From contig CANJIU010000005.1 in the NCBI GenBank assembly GCA_947474365.1, positions 1 to 64,000 of the forward strand: DNA of 64,000 nucleotides. Direction: 5' to 3'. Shown piece after piece: positions 47,265-54,070 of this stretch (position 1 is the stretch's first letter; every line of letters begins with the position of its first letter). The notes under the pieces are model-generated. The model saw only the letters and a list, made by a program, of their open reading frames with translations. It was not told where the DNA came from and made no database searches. The position numbers and the translations under genes were made by a program. This DNA is from Opitutia bacterium. GTDB taxonomy: Bacteria > Verrucomicrobiota > Verrucomicrobiia > Opitutales > Opitutaceae.

Positions 47265-48968
47265 TCAGCGCACGGGCCAGACATCGGCCAGCGCCTTCCA
47301 GTTGGCGAAGTAGTATACGGCGAAACACGCGAGGAAGACGAGCGTGAGGACCATCGTGCCCTTCGTGGCGTAGTGGTCGTTGGCCAGCGAACCCGGTTTG
47401 CTCCCGGCGAGCGCCGCGGGAACGCCCCAGTCGGCCATCGCGCGTCCTTCGATCTTGTCGCCGAAGAACAACGTGCCCACGCACAAGAGCGCGAAGACCA
47501 GCAAGCCGATGAAGGCGAGCACGCCGCCGATGCCGAGCAAGCCGAGCCAGAGGTGGGCGGCGGGTCCGTACACGCCCTGGGCGTCAATGTCCCAGCTGCG
47601 GCGCGACACGCCCATCGAACCCGCGAATGACATGCCGAACGAGACCAGGACGATGCCGATGCCAAACAGCCAGGGTTGGACGCGCGCGACACCGCGGAAG
47701 ATGAAGTCGCGTTGAAAAATCAGCGGGATGACATAGAAGGCGAGTCCCATGAAGGCGAGGGTGGTGCCGCCGACGACGGTCACGTGGAAATGCCCGGGGA
47801 TGCGCAGGGTGTTATGTGCGATGATGTTGATCTGCTGCGTGCCGAGGGTGACGCCGGTGATGCCGCCGAGGAAACCGAAGATGACCACGGAAAGCGCCGT
47901 GGCGGAAAACGCCGGATTCTTCCATGGGAGCGCGGTCACCCAGCCGAAGATGCCGCCAGTGTAACCTTTTTCGCGCATCGCGATCTCGACGCCCGCCGGC
48001 ACGGTGAAACCGTGAACCATCGATGCGAGCACCGCGAGGTACATGGCGTAGGAGGTGTTCCAGATCTTCCAGGTTGCGCCCACGCCCGGGTCGACGAGCA
48101 GATGGTGGGCGGAGGCGAGGTTGATGAAGAGAATGTAGAGGACGAACGCCGTGCGGCACACCGCCTCGTTGATCGGCCGGGATCCGAGGATGACATGCGT
48201 CAGCAGATACCAGACGGACACCATCGCGCAGACGTTGACCTGCTGGGACTGGTGGCCGAGGCCCCACCAGATGAGGCGATACCAGGCCGGGTCGGGCTGC
48301 GGCGTCCAGCCCATCGAGTAGGTGAACGTCGGGATCATCACGATTGCGCCGTGCAGCAGGGTGACGACCGCGATGATGGCCGCGGCGGTGGCGCCGAACG
48401 TCACGATCGGCACCGAGCCCTCATAGGCGCGATCGCGTTTGGCGACATAGAGCGTCGCGAAAAAATTGAAGACGCCGGTGAGCGTGCCCACGGCGACGAG
48501 GATGATGCCGAGGTAGAACAGCGGGTGGGCGAGCAGCGGCAGATAGGACGTCATCATCACGTCGGCGCTGCCGGCCACGATGATATAGTCGACCATCACG
48601 GCGCCGACGATCATCATCAGGAACGAAGCCCATGCGACTTTGCGCGAATAGAGCCGGGCGTTGAGCGGCGTCGTGCACGCGAAGTAGAGAATCGCGACCT
48701 CAAAAAACAGGATCCACAGGATCAGCATGTTAATGCCGTGGAAAGTCAGGATGCGGTAGAACCAGTCGACCGGAAGAAGGTGGACGGTCTGCCAGCGCGT
48801 GAGCGCCAACAGGAGCGCGGCGATCCCGCCCAGCAGGAGGAAGACGATTCCACAGACGGCGTTGAGCTTGATGAAGCGTTGGGCGTCGAGGCAGACGCCG
48901 AGACCGGTGGTGCCACAGATCCGTCCGGGCGTGCCGGGGGCGGCGAGGGAATGAGAAGGGTTGGACAT
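47265..48968 (-). CDS. Haem-copper oxidase subunit I, catalytic
   Basis: The 567-residue, twelve-or-more-segment protein has the full set of ligands: H77 (low-spin haem), H239 in WWGLGHQSQQV and the pair H288/H289 in SAHHLL (CuB), and H393/H395 in PGHFHVTVVGG (high-spin and low-spin haem). The position four residues after H239, where oxidases of types A and B have the cross-linked Tyr, is Gln243. Tyr278 in the next helix, ten residues before H288, could take that role as in cbb3 enzymes; this is inference. It reduces oxygen at the cytoplasmic membrane. It follows the CuA subunit gene by 11 bases. Confidence 0.93.
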   Translation of the reverse strand: MSNPSHSLAAPGTPGRICGTTGLGVCLDAQRFIKLNAVCGIVFLLLGGIAALLLALTRWQTVHLLPVDWFYRILTFHGINMLILWILFFEVAILYFACTTPLNARLYSRKVAWASFLMMIVGAVMVDYIIVAGSADVMMTSYLPLLAHPLFYLGIILVAVGTLTGVFNFFATLYVAKRDRAYEGSVPIVTFGATAAAIIAVVTLLHGAIVMIPTFTYSMGWTPQPDPAWYRLIWWGLGHQSQQVNVCAMVSVWYLLTHVILGSRPINEAVCRTAFVLYILFINLASAHHLLVDPGVGATWKIWNTSYAMYLAVLASMVHGFTVPAGVEIAMREKGYTGGIFGWVTALPWKNPAFSATALSVVIFGFLGGITGVTLGTQQINIIAHNTLRIPGHFHVTVVGGTTLAFMGLAFYVIPLIFQRDFIFRGVARVQPWLFGIGIVLVSFGMSFAGSMGVSRRSWDIDAQGVYGPAAHLWLGLLGIGGVLAFIGLLVFALLCVGTLFFGDKIEGRAMADWGVPAALAGSKPGSLANDHYATKGTMVLTLVFLACFAVYYFANWKALADVWPVR

Positions 48969-48979
48969 GGCCGTGGCGT

Positions 48980-49534
48980 TTATTCGACGAAGATTTTTCC
49001 GGACATGGCGTGATGGCCGATGCCGCAGAATTCATTGCAGACGATGGTGAATTCGCCCTTGGAGGTCGGGGTGAGTGTGAGCACGTGATCGTACCCGGGG
49101 AGCACCTGGAAATTCATGTTCAACGGCTGCAGGGAGAAACCGTGTTGCAGGTCGAGCGAGGAGAGGTGCAGTCGGTAAGTCTCACCCAGGCGGAGACGAA
49201 GGGCGGGGTACCACTGCCACATCCGGCCCATCAGGTAGGCGTCACCGCCGGCCGGAGGTTCGACGAGGGGCTCTTCCTGCATGAGGGGATTGGCGGTGCC
49301 CGTGGGCTTGTACGTGCCGACGCGGTTGGCGGCCACGAACTTCTCGGTGCGGGCGAGAAAATCGAGAGGCTTGACCGTGTAGGCTTCGCCGGTGCTGTTT
49401 TGCTTCCCGCGAAAATGCCAGTACGGCATCATCAGCGACATGACGAAGCACCAGAGGATGGCGCAGCCGAGCCAGATTTTTTCGTGGCCGGCCGGACGAT
49501 GAAACCACGGGGTGGTAAGTGGACGCAGGCTCAT
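48980..49534 (-). CDS. Cytochrome c oxidase subunit II (CuA)
   Basis: The 184-residue protein has one membrane segment (KIWLGCAILWCFVMSLMM) and a cupredoxin domain. The CuA ligands are complete: His in SLDLQHGFS and C-N-E-F-C-x3-H-x2-M in CNEFCGIGHHAM. It takes electrons from cytochrome c, so the complex is a cytochrome c-type rather than a quinol oxidase. The extra segment between membrane helix and cupredoxin part (about 50 residues) is unlike canonical subunits. The small membrane-protein gene lies 12 bases upstream. Confidence 0.94.
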   Translation of the reverse strand: MSLRPLTTPWFHRPAGHEKIWLGCAILWCFVMSLMMPYWHFRGKQNSTGEAYTVKPLDFLARTEKFVAANRVGTYKPTGTANPLMQEEPLVEPPAGGDAYLMGRMWQWYPALRLRLGETYRLHLSSLDLQHGFSLQPLNMNFQVLPGYDHVLTLTPTSKGEFTIVCNEFCGIGHHAMSGKIFVE

Positions 49535-49546
49535 GGGGTGAGGTGT

Positions 49547-49696
49547 TCAGGGCAGCAGGGCCGGTTTGGTGAGCACGAGTTCGACCCAACCCCACGCGGT
49601 GTAGGAGAGGAGGGGGATGACGACGCCGAGGACGAGGAGCAGCCAGGGGTTGTCGAGGACCCGCTGCCACGGGTGCTTGTTAGGTTCGTTGTTCAT
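49547..49696 (-). CDS. Small single-segment membrane protein of the oxidase cluster
   Basis: The 49-residue protein MNNEPNKHPWQRVLDNP... starts at ATG 49696, overlapping the end of the upstream oxidase-like gene, and has one transmembrane segment (LLLVLGVVIPLLSYTAWGW). Small one-helix subunits are common in B-type and cbb3-type oxidases. Tight spacing on both sides supports it being translated. The larger in-frame start at 49798 lies inside another gene and is not likely. Confidence 0.75.
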   Translation of the reverse strand: MNNEPNKHPWQRVLDNPWLLLVLGVVIPLLSYTAWGWVELVLTKPALLP

Positions 49697-51116
49697 GGAG
49701 AAGGTGTGAAGTCCGGGCTTCGGCGTGGCGCCACTGGCCGACGCGGCGCAGCATAACCGCGAGGAAAAATATGCCGCCAGCCACGGCGACGAGGCCACCG
49801 AGGCCCATGATGCTCAGCCCCAGATATTCCCCCAGAGAGCGGACGTGTTGTTCCACGCCGTACTGCTTGCGACCAAGGCCGAACGCGCCGGCCAACGCGA
49901 AGCCCAGGCCGAAGACCGCCTGGCCGCCGCCGAAGAGGATTAGTTGCAGCCGGGCGTGGGGCGCCGGCGCGACATCCGATCCAGCGGGCGCCACGCTCGT
50001 GCAAAAATCGTACGCCGCGGCCATCAGCGCGATCGTGACGGCGCCGATGGCGCAGTGATAATGCCCGGGCACCAGCGTGCTGGAGCCTCGGATCAGGGAA
50101 CCGAGTAAAAATCCCAGCACGGTCAACGCGACGCTGCCGGCGAAGCCGACGAAACGATGATCGCGCCAGTTCAGTTGCGCGCGGCGGCGCCAGACGTGGA
50201 CCCCGGCGGTGGCCACGACCACGAGCACGACGGGAAACAGCGTCCAGCGCATCAGATGCGTCGCCATCGAGAAATAGTTCGTCGTCGTGGTTCCGGCGAA
50301 GGCCAGCGGTGGCATGGTCACTTGCGGCAGCACCAGCGCGGTGAGGAGCGCGGCAGTCGCGTTGGGCGACAACACCGATTCTCCAGTCCAACGCCGGAGG
50401 AGGTGCAGCCACAGCGCCAGCATCGCCGCGACGTTGGCCGCCTGCAGCACGTGACCGCCGCCCCAGAACACCAGCTCATAAAAAACCGCGGGTGCCGCGT
50501 CCGGCGTGGTGCGCCAGGCGCCGAGGAATGTCACAATCGCCAGGACGTTGGCCGCCGCCGCCGCGCGCAGGGCGAACACGACTTCGCCGGACAACGCCTT
50601 TTCGTCGGTGCGGGCCGGCGTGCCGAGTGCGACCGCGAAAAAGAGCCCGGTGCCGGCAAACCAGCCGACGAGTCCGAGAAAAAACACGGGGTGATCGATG
50701 ACCGGCACGTAGTTCGAGAGCACGGGCTGCGCGCCGGGCATCACTGCTCCCACGACCATCGCGCCGACGCCGGCGGCGGCCAGGGCAAACGCGGTGGTTG
50801 TCACGCCGCGCGACAGGCGCGAGCCGAGCGCGAGGGCGAGAAAGGCGAGCGTCCCGGCCTGAAACCACACGACGATCGCGAGGTCGACGTGAACGACGAG
50901 TGCGCGTTTGAAGAACAAGGGATCCGTGAACAGCCAGTCGAGGAACGGCAGCCGGCCGATGACGAGGAGGAGCGAAAGCAACCCGGCGAGCACGAGGCTG
51001 CCGATGGCGAAAAGGAACCAGCCGCGCGCGCCGTACGTGGTGTCGCTCGCCGCCTCAACGGGGCGTATCTCTGGAAAGTCCCCGATCGTCGGGGCGATCA
51101 TGGTGGGTGGTGGCAT
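49680..51116 (-). CDS. Haem-copper-oxidase-like subunit I lacking the CuB histidine pair
   Basis: The protein has 478 residues from ATG 51116 (ATG 51101 is also possible) and about twelve membrane segments. It keeps the haem ligands of subunit I: H76 in VVHVDLAIVVWFQ and the pair H352/H354 in PGHYHCAIGAV. H222 in FWGGGHVLQAANVA matches the first CuB ligand. The neighbouring helix, where catalytic subunits have His-His, reads QVTMPPLAFAG, with Pro269/Pro270 at the aligned place. A CuB site is therefore unlikely, and oxygen or NO reduction by this chain is doubtful. It is the first gene of the cluster and may serve as a haem-only partner of the complete subunit I. Confidence 0.82.
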   Translation of the reverse strand: MPPPTMIAPTIGDFPEIRPVEAASDTTYGARGWFLFAIGSLVLAGLLSLLLVIGRLPFLDWLFTDPLFFKRALVVHVDLAIVVWFQAGTLAFLALALGSRLSRGVTTTAFALAAAGVGAMVVGAVMPGAQPVLSNYVPVIDHPVFFLGLVGWFAGTGLFFAVALGTPARTDEKALSGEVVFALRAAAAANVLAIVTFLGAWRTTPDAAPAVFYELVFWGGGHVLQAANVAAMLALWLHLLRRWTGESVLSPNATAALLTALVLPQVTMPPLAFAGTTTTNYFSMATHLMRWTLFPVVLVVVATAGVHVWRRRAQLNWRDHRFVGFAGSVALTVLGFLLGSLIRGSSTLVPGHYHCAIGAVTIALMAAAYDFCTSVAPAGSDVAPAPHARLQLILFGGGQAVFGLGFALAGAFGLGRKQYGVEQHVRSLGEYLGLSIMGLGGLVAVAGGIFFLAVMLRRVGQWRHAEARTSHLLHEQRT

Positions 51117-51828
51117 GCACCGTTGTAGTGCATGGGAGCGCTGCGGTCCTTGATCGCCGTCAAGGTTTTGCATCGTCGTCGCGCGCCGGCCTCGCGGGCG
51201 GTCGCAATGGCCCCGCGTTTTGGCGGTTCGGGGCGCGGTCATCTCGGCAACGGATCGCTCCGAATGTTTTTGGTGGGCCATCGTTACTGCGGTGCGGTTC
51301 GTCGCCGCAGTTCGGTGACGAGATCGAGCTTCCCGGCGGCCTGTCCGCCGGTCGGCTCCTGCCTACATCTACTCCCCCTTGGGCCCAGCTCGACGCAGGG
51401 GCCAACGCCGCCACTCGAGGCGGGGTTCGTCCCACCCGGCGGCCGAACTGCTCCCCTTGGTGGGAGCCGTCGCATTCGCCCCTCGGGTGTTCCCGGGAAA
51501 GCCTGGCCGAGAAGGATGCGAGAAGGATCCGTATAGGTTCCGAGAAGGATCTGAGAAGGATCCGAGAAGGATCCTGAGGAAAACCCCCTGCGTGGCCCCG
51601 GTGATCAGTCCCCATCCGCGGGTGCGCAAGGGCCCATCGCTGCGCCGCCGCCCTGGCACGGTAAGACCGAAGGGTCTGCAGCAAGGCAGCTGCCTGGCAG
51701 TTGCCCGTCGTCCTCCGTGTCGGTCTTGTCCTCTATTTCTGCGGCGTCCTGCCTGGAGCGGCGACGCCCCCGTCGCCGACATCGGATTCGGAAGAGCACG
51801 GCGAAAAAGCCGCCGACGGGTCATGCCG
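51117..51828. other. Intergenic region with short tandem repeats, no gene seen
   Basis: About 700 bases between the oxidase cluster and the integrase remnant. It contains the 11-base tandem repeats described separately and a hairpin GGCGACG-GGGG-CGTCGCC near 51772-51790. Open frames on both strands are artefacts of high GC. The oxidase promoter should lie near 51120-51300. Confidence 0.45.
51509..51574. repeat. Tandem 11-base repeats
   Basis: Six head-to-tail units of 11 bases: GAGAAGGATGC, GAGAAGGATCC, GTATAGGTTCC (degenerate), GAGAAGGATCT, GAGAAGGATCC and GAGAAGGATCC. The unit does not fit a codon period. Such iterons can bind a protein or arise by slippage. Confidence 0.85.
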
Positions 51829-52647
51829 CTATCCGAAGCGTCGATAGGCGCGACGCAGATGGCCGAAAACACTCTCGACCAGCTCCGCCATCAGCCGCGA
51901 CGTGCCGTCCAGCTGTCGTAAAAGCCGCTAGCATTCGTCGCGGCTTAGGACCACGGGCATTCTTCGTTTCGGTCGCGCCCGCCGAAAATCAATGGGCCCG
52001 GGTTCCCGGTGCAGTCCCTCTTTCAGAAAAAACACCAGCGCATTCAACGCCTGCTTTTGCGTTGATGGACTCGCACGTTTCTCCACCGCCAGCGCCGTGA
52101 GGAACGCCACCACATCTGTCCCGTCCGCCGCATAAGGACTCCGCGGCTTTACGAAGGCCGCGAACTTGGCCGCCCATTCCCGATCGGTCGTTTCGGTTCG
52201 CCAGGGGAACCCCCGGCCGCGGCTCGCCTTGATGAGGTCGCGCTCCCAATCCGCCCCGCCGAGGTCGGTCCGCGCCGGCGGAGGCGTCCCGTGGCCCACC
52301 CCGCGGCGATTCCGCCCGGACCGCCACAGCCAGCGGAGGGCATCGCGCGCGAGTGTCGCGCCCCGAGGTTCGCGCGCGAGATAGTTTCGCACCGCGCTGA
52401 CAGACGGGACCGCCTGTCGCGGCCGGCAATGCGCCTCAAACCAGGCGATTTCGCGCGCGTAATCCGCCCGCACCGTCTGGTCGATCCGGGCGGTCGCGAG
52501 CGCCCCGCCACAGTTGGCGAACAAGAGGGAGGTGTTTTCCCTGGGAGTGCAGTCGCCGCCGAAAGCCACACTCGGAGTAACGCTTTCAGCGGGAGCCCGC
52601 ACGATTCTCTCGGCGACCCAAATTGCGGTAGGATTTGTTTGGTGCAA
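51829..52647 (-). pseudogene. intI: Broken integron integrase (tyrosine recombinase), N-terminal part
   Basis: On the minus strand the region near 52200-51930 matches the N-terminal half of integron integrases: a SAM-like core-binding domain with DGTDVVAFLTALAVEKRAS, STQKQALNALVFFLKEGL, then RRMPVVLSRDEC. A TAG at 51928-51930 interrupts this; immediately after it the same frame continues with RLLRQLDGTSRLMAELV, the expected next family segment. The next codon in intact relatives would typically be CAG, so a single C-to-T change explains the stop. The catalytic domain with the Arg-His-Arg-Tyr residues is absent, and a second stop follows at 51829. An N-terminal extension of about 130 residues precedes the core. 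The gene is not functional. It is divergent from the cassette genes, as intI normally is. Confidence 0.82.
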
Positions 52648-52761
52648 CGTGGATGACGTTCTGCTACCGCACTCTCCGTGTCTGCCCCCGTTCCGCCACC
52701 GCCCAAGCTCCGTCCCCGCCGCCTCCTGCGAAAGCCAGACTGAGTAAGGGATAATTACACT

Positions 52762-52768
52762 GTTGGGC
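52762..52768 (+). other. attI-like core site
   Basis: GTTGGGC fits the recombination core GTTRRRY. It stands between the 5' end of the integrase remnant and the first cassette gene, whose ATG is 10 bases later. This is the expected position of the attI insertion point. The seven-base core alone is not decisive. Confidence 0.5.
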
Positions 52769-52778
52769 CAAGAATCGA

Positions 52779-53204
52779 ATGACTAAGTTGATCCCACGAT
52801 ATTCGAACCTAGTTTTCCTGGCGTGTGCCAGTTTCCTGATCGCTGGCTGTGAGAAAGCCGAGAAGGCCTTCCAGAATCGGAATGATTCGTCTGATCGCAG
52901 CTTCATCCGCAACAATCTGGCCCAGCTTTCAGAAGCTGGCCGAGTTTATACTTTTGATCACAACGTAAGCGTCGTCCGTTTTGACGACGTCGTGGGACCG
53001 CAGAAATTCGTCAAGAAAATCGTTCCGGTCGACGGAGAGGACTATCGCCAGTTCGACTACTCTCCAAATACCAATAGTTGGACCATCATCACAAAGCGCG
53101 GCGTCACGGTAACATTCGAACGGCCTCAAAGGCCCAACCAGCCGGCACAGCCAACGACCACGGCTGTCCCGTCTCCTGCTGCGCAGGAGCCGCGCCAGCC
53201 GTAG
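52779..53204 (+). CDS. Integron cassette gene 1: lipoprotein of unknown function
   Basis: The 141-residue protein starts at ATG 52779 and has a lipoprotein signal (LVFLACASFLIAGCEKAE, lipobox Cys24). The mature part has no recognisable family; a beta-rich middle (YTFDHNVSVVRFDD, YSPNTNSWTIITKRGVTVTFE) is followed by a Pro- and Gln-rich tail that overlaps the attC site. Base composition is visibly lower in GC than the surrounding chromosome, consistent with transfer. The cassette begins at the core GTTGGGC and ends in attC. Confidence 0.78.
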   Translation: MTKLIPRYSNLVFLACASFLIAGCEKAEKAFQNRNDSSDRSFIRNNLAQLSEAGRVYTFDHNVSVVRFDDVVGPQKFVKKIVPVDGEDYRQFDYSPNTNSWTIITKRGVTVTFERPQRPNQPAQPTTTAVPSPAAQEPRQP

Positions 53205-53230
53205 TCGTGGCTGACCTCCAAACGTTGGGC
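53132..53230 (+). repeat. Integron attC site (59-base element type)
   Basis: The outer boxes are GCCCAAC (53132-53138) and GTTGGGC (53224-53230), exact inverted copies that fit RYYYAAC and GTTRRRY. Inside, CAGCCAACGACCACGGCTG and the inverse of CAGCCGTAGTCGTGGCTG pair along their length with one unpaired base, as in the L boxes of attC with an extrahelical base. In the centre CTCCTG and CAGGAG form the terminal hairpin. The 99-base imperfect palindrome overlaps the 3' end of the first cassette gene, as is usual. Confidence 0.85.
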
Positions 53231-53283
53231 AAAGTAACGCCATGTCGTTCAAAAGCGTCGCAATGTTGAGACGGGGCGAAAAC

Positions 53284-53718
53284 ATGAGACTCACGCTGAT
53301 ATTCTTGTTGCTCGCGTCGTACACGCTCGCTGCACCTAAAGCGACGGTCGGTGCTGCCGAAGCTTTCAGTAAGGCCGTCGAGGTGGGGTTGCCGAAAGTA
53401 GCGGTCGATAAAGAAGGCCGAGACCGATTAGTCGTTATGCGTATAGAGATGGAGAAGATCCGGCGCGTCGAAGCTAGTGTCGAAGCGAAATGGAGTTTCT
53501 CGCGACGAGCCAGTACGAGCAACGACATCGTCGAGGCCAACCGACTTTCTACCCTTAGTGGTCTACGAACGTTGGCTGAGAGCTCCCGTTTACTCGTGGC
53601 TCGAAGCCGCGAAGTGGTGACGGAATCGAAGCGAGAGCAGATAGAAGCGTTGTTCACCTCATTAAACCGTGCGGTGGATGAGTATGAGGCGGAGCTTCAC
53701 AGCGGTCGGTACCCGTAA
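53284..53718 (+). CDS. Integron cassette gene 2: secreted protein of unknown function
   Basis: The 144-residue protein starts at ATG 53284 just before a signal peptide (MRLTLIFLLLASYTLAAPK); ATG 53242 is an alternative 12 bases after the attC core. The mature part is predicted helical with Arg- and Glu-rich segments (EMEKIRRVEASVEAKW, REVVTESKREQIEALF), possibly coiled-coil. No family is recognised. Codon use is less GC-biased than in neighbours. A core-like GCCCAAC at 53722-53728 follows the stop, but no matching right-hand box is seen. Confidence 0.75.
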   Translation: MRLTLIFLLLASYTLAAPKATVGAAEAFSKAVEVGLPKVAVDKEGRDRLVVMRIEMEKIRRVEASVEAKWSFSRRASTSNDIVEANRLSTLSGLRTLAESSRLLVARSREVVTESKREQIEALFTSLNRAVDEYEAELHSGRYP

Positions 53719-53733
53719 AGAGCCCAACATAAC

Positions 53734-53958
53734 ATGAGAACTACATTCACGGCTGTGATCGCGATGCTCACGGTACTGATCTGCGGCTGTGCTTCGGGAG
53801 ATCCTAGTAGGCGAAGTGACTTCTCGGCTGGGAAGCCTCCGTCACAAGATAGAGCGACAAAGGTGGACACGCGTGCTCGCCAGCTCGAAAGAGGAGGAAT
53901 GTCGCATGACGAGGCCACGGCACGCGCCGCTATCGAATACGCGAAGGGCGTGAAGTGA
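53734..53958 (+). CDS. Integron cassette-like gene 3: small lipoprotein
   Basis: The 74-residue protein has a lipoprotein signal (TAVIAMLTVLICGCASGD, lipobox Cys19). The mature part is short, with a helical end (RARQLERGGMSHDEATARAAIEYAKG). It starts six bases after the core-like GCCCAAC and is followed by GCTCAAC (53970-53976), which fits RYYYAAC. Complete attC sites are not visible on either side, so it may be a captured and then immobilised cassette. Confidence 0.65.
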   Translation: MRTTFTAVIAMLTVLICGCASGDPSRRSDFSAGKPPSQDRATKVDTRARQLERGGMSHDEATARAAIEYAKGVK

Positions 53959-54070
53959 AAAAGGAAGAAGCTCAACCATGGATCTGATCTTCAGGGGGGA
54001 GGAGACGGATGTCACGGGTGACTCAGCGCGGGGGGTTCAGGGATTCGTCGGGCGTGGTCGTCAGGATCGC

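Follow-up and report, generated by a model that had tools for sequence, protein, structure and literature searches.

The locus described here is best read as the dead relic of a formerly working chromosomal integron, a reading to which we assign a probability of about 0.93. It lies in the window, the 64,000-nucleotide stretch of DNA that was analyzed as a whole (G000:C5:1-64000), which belongs to a 10.3 Mb genome assembled as 275 contigs with 97.6% completeness and 7.4% contamination. By its gene content, this genome may be one of the Opitutaceae. The first-pass annotation, made from the sequence alone, had proposed a relic chromosomal integron, and this proposal is now supported by an integrase profile, an attC model, and an attI consensus derived from relatives. 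Neither of the two outcomes that the first-pass annotation had named as refuting it, an integrase profile pointing to a different recombinase family and a background attC score, was obtained. Caveats of the reading include that the locus holds one complete attC only and that the scars after its second and third genes are single 7-base boxes. The coordinates of all features are collected in Table 1.

On the minus strand, a fragment spanning 51928-52647 carries a stop codon and lacks a catalytic domain, as had been described at first pass; its probable start is the GTG at 52567-52569, which aligns to the Met of relatives. The fragment matches the integron-integrase model TIGR02249 with E 7e-17 (model positions 11-106 of 315, falling under the whole-protein cut-off because the gene is truncated) and the SAM-like domain PF13495 with E 1.3e-16, whereas an Xer-type model reaches E 0.017 only. 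The proteins closest to it are complete integron integrases. The same genus contains intact relatives, which score far above the curated TIGR02249 cut-off, and the nearest of these, in genome G016, is 75% identical across 107 aa of the integrase and lies above the family cut-off. The fragment thus derives from an intI-family tyrosine recombinase, and a working catalytic domain is absent from it.

Beside intI lies an attI site. We derived an attI consensus by aligning the stretch from intI to the first cassette across relatives, in which the core AATAACACTGTTNGGC is almost invariant; with at most one mismatch, it is present in nearly all relatives that have both an extra-domain integrase (see below) and upstream sequence, and it is absent from the other relatives. 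The core in the window, AATTACACTGTTGGGC, is the sole match to the pattern AATNACACTGTTNGGC in the entire 10.3 Mb genome, and with up to two mismatches allowed, 0.01 matches would be expected in the window by chance. The GTTGGGC that had been noticed 10 bases before the first gene is the crossover box of this site (52762-52768, ahead of the ATG at 52779) and closes its core.

The attC site of the locus has both paired boxes and a conserved fold. Using a covariance model built from 18 attCs of relatives, from which the attC of the window was excluded, cmsearch scored the palindrome at 85.6 bits (E 3e-20). In known integrons, IntI recombines the bottom strand of attC, and the bottom-strand DNA fold of this site has an energy of -40.1 kcal/mol (z -7.8), with 0 of 200 shuffles equally good. 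Rfam, searched in gathering and E-value modes, returned no attC family match, and a search of the array with the covariance model, even with filters off, found no second attC. The first-pass annotation had recognized this palindrome as attC-like and had placed it at the end of the gene series; it is a true attC, but it closes the first cassette, with the stop codon of gene 1 (TAG, 53202-53204) inside it. A quite different account of the locus would be a fragment of another tyrosine recombinase that happens to sit beside a chance palindrome or a terminator, and it can draw on the survival of N-terminal domains alone and on the Pfam SAM-like domain being common to many recombinases. The gap between the TIGR02249 and Xer scores, the attC E-value, and the match to the attI consensus all speak against such an account, which the profile and attC tests refute and to which we give practically no weight.

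The three small plus-strand genes have a G+C content of 0.54, 0.55, and 0.58 (genes 1 to 3), compared with 0.63-0.67 in their neighbors, and lipoprotein or signal-peptide-like N termini judged by eye, in agreement with the low-GC, secreted-type genes originally reported. Profile searches gave no family match for the genes of cassettes 2 and 3. Of 250 genomes, 188 contain the family of cassette gene 1, in most cases at a distance from attCs; a significant attC was absent from all 29 of the loci inspected for its relatives, and we therefore ruled out a cassette-specific family. After gene 2, the sequence reads TAA-AGA-GCCCAAC and continues directly into the leader and ATG of gene 3; the same stop-GA-box context stands ahead of attC in relatives. 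Lone RYYYAAC boxes are all that follows genes 2 and 3, and we infer from these that both genes have lost their attCs past the first box, a loss that would leave them locked in place. The scar of cassette 3 is the weaker of the two and is a probable cropped attC.

Table 1. Features of the integron locus, with the two further attC sites of the source genome.
Feature	Location	Strand	Basis or context
Genome-wide repeat adjoining the broken end of intI	51389..51882	.	45 places in its own genome
Truncated integron-integrase gene; extra and usual core-binding domains, no catalytic domain	51880..52569	-	Profiles and homology
In-frame nonsense codon TAG in intI	51928..51930 (+ strand CTA)	-	Intact aligned relatives read through
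attI core AATTACACTGTTGGGC	52753..52768	+	Differs at one base from AATAACACTGTTNGGC, the consensus of intact relatives
Gene of cassette 1 (141 aa), predicted to encode a lipoprotein; family widespread in these bacteria	52779..53204	+	
Complete attC of cassette 1, GCCCAAC ... GTTGGGC	53132..53230	+	Covariance model and fold
Gene of cassette 2 (158 aa) with a signal-peptide-like N terminus	53242..53718	+	
Leftover first box GCCCAAC of cropped cassette 2 attC	53722..53728	+	Sequence context
Gene of cassette 3 (74 aa), predicted to encode a lipoprotein	53734..53958	+	
Leftover first box GCTCAAC of probable cropped cassette 3 attC	53970..53976	+	Sequence; end of the relic
Solo attC	G000:C8:138888-138984	-	Located after a cassette gene 1 relative
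Solo attC	G000:C18:11667-11760	+	attC model

Nucleotide homology of intI to its intact relatives stops at 51879-51881, just past the residues MAEL, which precede the catalytic arginine region of the integrase; all catalytic residues have therefore been lost, and it is this loss, together with the nonsense codon, that leads us to call the locus a relic rather than a working integron. At the deletion junction (about 51880), intI is joined to an intergenic repeat whose mosaic copies recur across the genome (among others on contigs C9, C44, C8, C40, and C82), the copies compared being 78-96% identical. We considered an IS element at the broken end; the sequence at the junction is this repeat, whether or not it is mobile. 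The repeat has a core, CTGGAGCGGCGACGCCCCCGTCGCCG, at 51753-51778, and an 11-base tandem repeat, CCGAGAAGGAT, is present in several degenerate copies at 51507-51583 of the window. Beyond the repeat, heme-copper oxidase-like genes occupy 47265-51281 on the minus strand, including at 49680-51281 a divergent second subunit-I-like protein with approximately 50%-identical relatives in six same-genus genomes. No live syntenic copy of the locus was found among the genomes compared; in relatives, the flanking genes are not beside integrons, and we rejected the use of flanking genes to locate such a copy, the relatives being too distant.

The position of the junction exactly at a genome-wide repeat, in a genome assembled in so many contigs, raises the question of whether the contig was mis-joined at that repeat and the real integron is intact. 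We consider such an assembly artifact quite improbable: the C-terminal half of the integrase was not found on any other contig, most repeat copies should be separable at the identities given above, and the fragment carries two independent lesions, namely the TAG upstream of the junction and a Y-to-D substitution where seven intact relatives show no variation. This substitution is the only one among 28 such invariant residues. Codon-position differences between the fragment and G016 are 0.25, 0.18, and 0.52 for the first, second, and third positions, respectively. From these figures, the intI fragment retains the footprint of purifying selection and was under selection until recently, which places the death of the integrase late.

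The history that we propose for the relic would run as follows. In an active phase, IntI would have recombined attC with attI, linking circular cassettes, as they arrived, by their folded attC hairpins to the GTTGGGC at attI, with every new insertion shoving the older cassettes rightward; later, the catalytic half of the integrase would have disappeared, as would the attCs of cassettes 2 and 3 past the first box. Cassette 1 still has both sites required for it to leave, and no complete integron integrase, the presence of which had been raised at first pass as a point to check, was found elsewhere in the source genome in a search at 97.6% completeness. The fragmented and partly contaminated assembly means that an integrase may nonetheless have gone unassembled.

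Such an integrase, or one arriving by transfer, might act in trans and still move cassette 1, so that the array would not be fixed. The attI and attC of cassette 1 do look functional, and relatives commonly have attI-headed arrays that lack an integrase gene and whose attCs are of the same type as those of the integrase-bearing array in the genome concerned. We nevertheless regard continued mobility as unlikely, given the absence of a complete intI at this level of completeness and the paucity of other sites: the 10.3 Mb hold only three attCs and one attI, and the two further solo attCs score far lower than that of the relic (55.8 bits on C8 and 50.8 bits on C18). The C8 site is flanked on either side by GTTGGGC, like a single cassette outside attI. 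Pairwise similarity among the three attCs is 0.70-0.74 (0.74 and 0.70 for the attC of the window against the other two), compared with averages of 0.47-0.64 against attCs of other genomes, although the best single match of the window attC in other genomes reaches 0.81. This likeness is in line with the idea that a single former integrase placed all three sites.

In terms of known systems, the relic resembles the sedentary chromosomal integrons of Xanthomonas, in which intI genes inactivated by deletion or stop are common (PMC12444791), in having attI, cassettes, attC, a broken intI, and fixed cassettes; it differs in belonging to another bacterial family, in the extra N-terminal core-binding domain of its lineage, and in an array reduced to one intact attC. 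CALINs, which are clusters of attCs lacking an integron-integrase and thought to be degraded integrons (IntegronFinder 2.0, PMC9024848), likewise have no functional integrase. Unlike a CALIN, which requires two or more attCs and the absence of an integrase gene, however, the relic keeps attI and the 5' part of intI, and its single attC lies under the default of two (PMC9024848). It is also the opposite of an In0, which has a complete intI and no attC, in that a truncated intI is accompanied by one attC. The closest intact counterpart is the integron on contig C85 of G016, which has the same integrase domain order, an attI reading AATAACACTGATCGGC, and an attC immediately after attI; its integrase, in contrast, is full-length, with a 487-aa open frame that includes the catalytic domain, and the contig ends within the array.

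In this lineage, integrase open frames measure approximately 450-500 residues (656-673 in two cases), and a conserved domain of about 75 residues precedes the usual SAM-like domain. The relic has this extra N-terminal domain as well, at about 52312-52530 on the minus strand (extra-domain HMM, E 5e-13). Profile comparison of the extra domain with the SAM-like domain (hhalign) gave a probability of 85%. The extra domain of the Verrucomicrobia integrase L116 was modeled with AlphaFold2 (pLDDT 82.8, alignment of three sequences). The top 24 structural matches of the model are without exception tyrosine-recombinase chains, aligned at or near the core-binding domain and led by XerD 1a0p (Z 8.0, rmsd 2.7, 74 residues) and VchIntIA, PDB 2a3v (76 residues aligned by VIA-align, Z 8.0, rmsd 3.0); beyond these 24, Z falls to 4.2. 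Foldseek E-values for the model are weak and helical bundles readily give middling Z, so the sequence profile and the predicted fold need to be read jointly. Taken together, they indicate that the extra domain resembles a second, tandem core-binding domain, where VchIntIA has one. Integron integrases have been described as simple recombinases, with one core-binding and one catalytic domain and no further N-terminal domain (PMC8138268), an architecture from which both the lineage and the relic depart. The passages of open-access literature that were covered contain no description of a tandem core-binding domain in IntI. By eye, short ..ACT(S)AGT.. palindromes were noticed about 5-40 bases upstream of attI in relatives (L062-L073, L222-L271); their arms vary between genomes yet often remain palindromic, and a similar palindrome lies near the start of intI. 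They are possible accessory binding sites, and the second core-binding domain may perhaps read such sites near attI.

Of 252 genomes of the family, 71 contain the exact attI core, at 128 places in all; a reversed control pattern had no match in the genomes listed. We read 65 distinct sites, of which 3 had too little upstream sequence and 62 could be classified by what lies alongside: an intact integrase at 11 sites (including two, in G006 and G008, that had first been listed as remnants solely on account of a long linker), a clear integrase remnant at 4, an integrase that runs off the end of the stretch at 1, and a small, conserved divergent gene at 12. The other 34 have neither an integrase nor the small gene, although 2 of them show by eye a very short integrase-like N terminus. 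Recognized integrase sequence is thus absent alongside 46 of 62 sites, many of which head attC arrays. At 10 of 12 sites, the distance from the attI core to the start of the small gene is 89-91 bases. The gene encodes a product of about 70 aa (M-G-R..ARFRISIKDHQ..IKVELIE...; for example L231, L236, L257, L259, L273, L274, and L287) that matches no Pfam family, and an independent search with this protein found an attI-like core alongside 17 of 24 matches. Assemblies of one or two contigs argue that the orphan sites are real: in G029, attI is followed by at least 7 attCs with no integrase match at E 1e-60, and G030 and G031 each have one integrase-bearing attI and two orphan attIs. Arrays headed by an integrase-less attI are present in relatives, with several such sites per genome (for example L300 in G029, L309 in G228, L298/L299 in G031, and L252-L262 in G019), and G019 has 15 attI cores. 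Upstream modules of 200-300 bp are repeated between attI copies.

In G228, attC similarity between the integrase-bearing and orphan arrays averages 0.72, against 0.73 and 0.72 within the arrays and 0.54-0.59 against the other genomes compared; the attCs of G031 show much the same pattern. This likeness suggests action in trans; it could also stem from homologous recombination between the arrays or from integrase genes having been lost in the past. Integrase-less attI sites are not described in the open-access passages covered. The extra domain, the orphan attIs, and the small gene can be read from the sequences directly, and from them we infer a lineage with tandem core-binding integrases, a conserved attI, and dispersed integrase-less arrays served in trans by a single integrase, its second domain perhaps reading accessory sites; we would put this composite picture at even odds.

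The dead integron is of a known kind and, as such, ordinary, as inactivated intI genes are well documented. Its lineage is a variant that, within the open-access literature, is new: the surviving parts of the relic point to an unusual group with an extra integrase domain and many attI sites far from integrase genes. With two core-binding domains in tandem, these integrases also prompt the question of whether integron recombination involves accessory binding sites. Because attI conservation in this family is high enough for detection by a pattern search, integrase-less attC clusters can be sorted into those headed by attI and those that are not, which makes both the origin of such clusters and the question of one integrase serving several arrays in trans directly testable.
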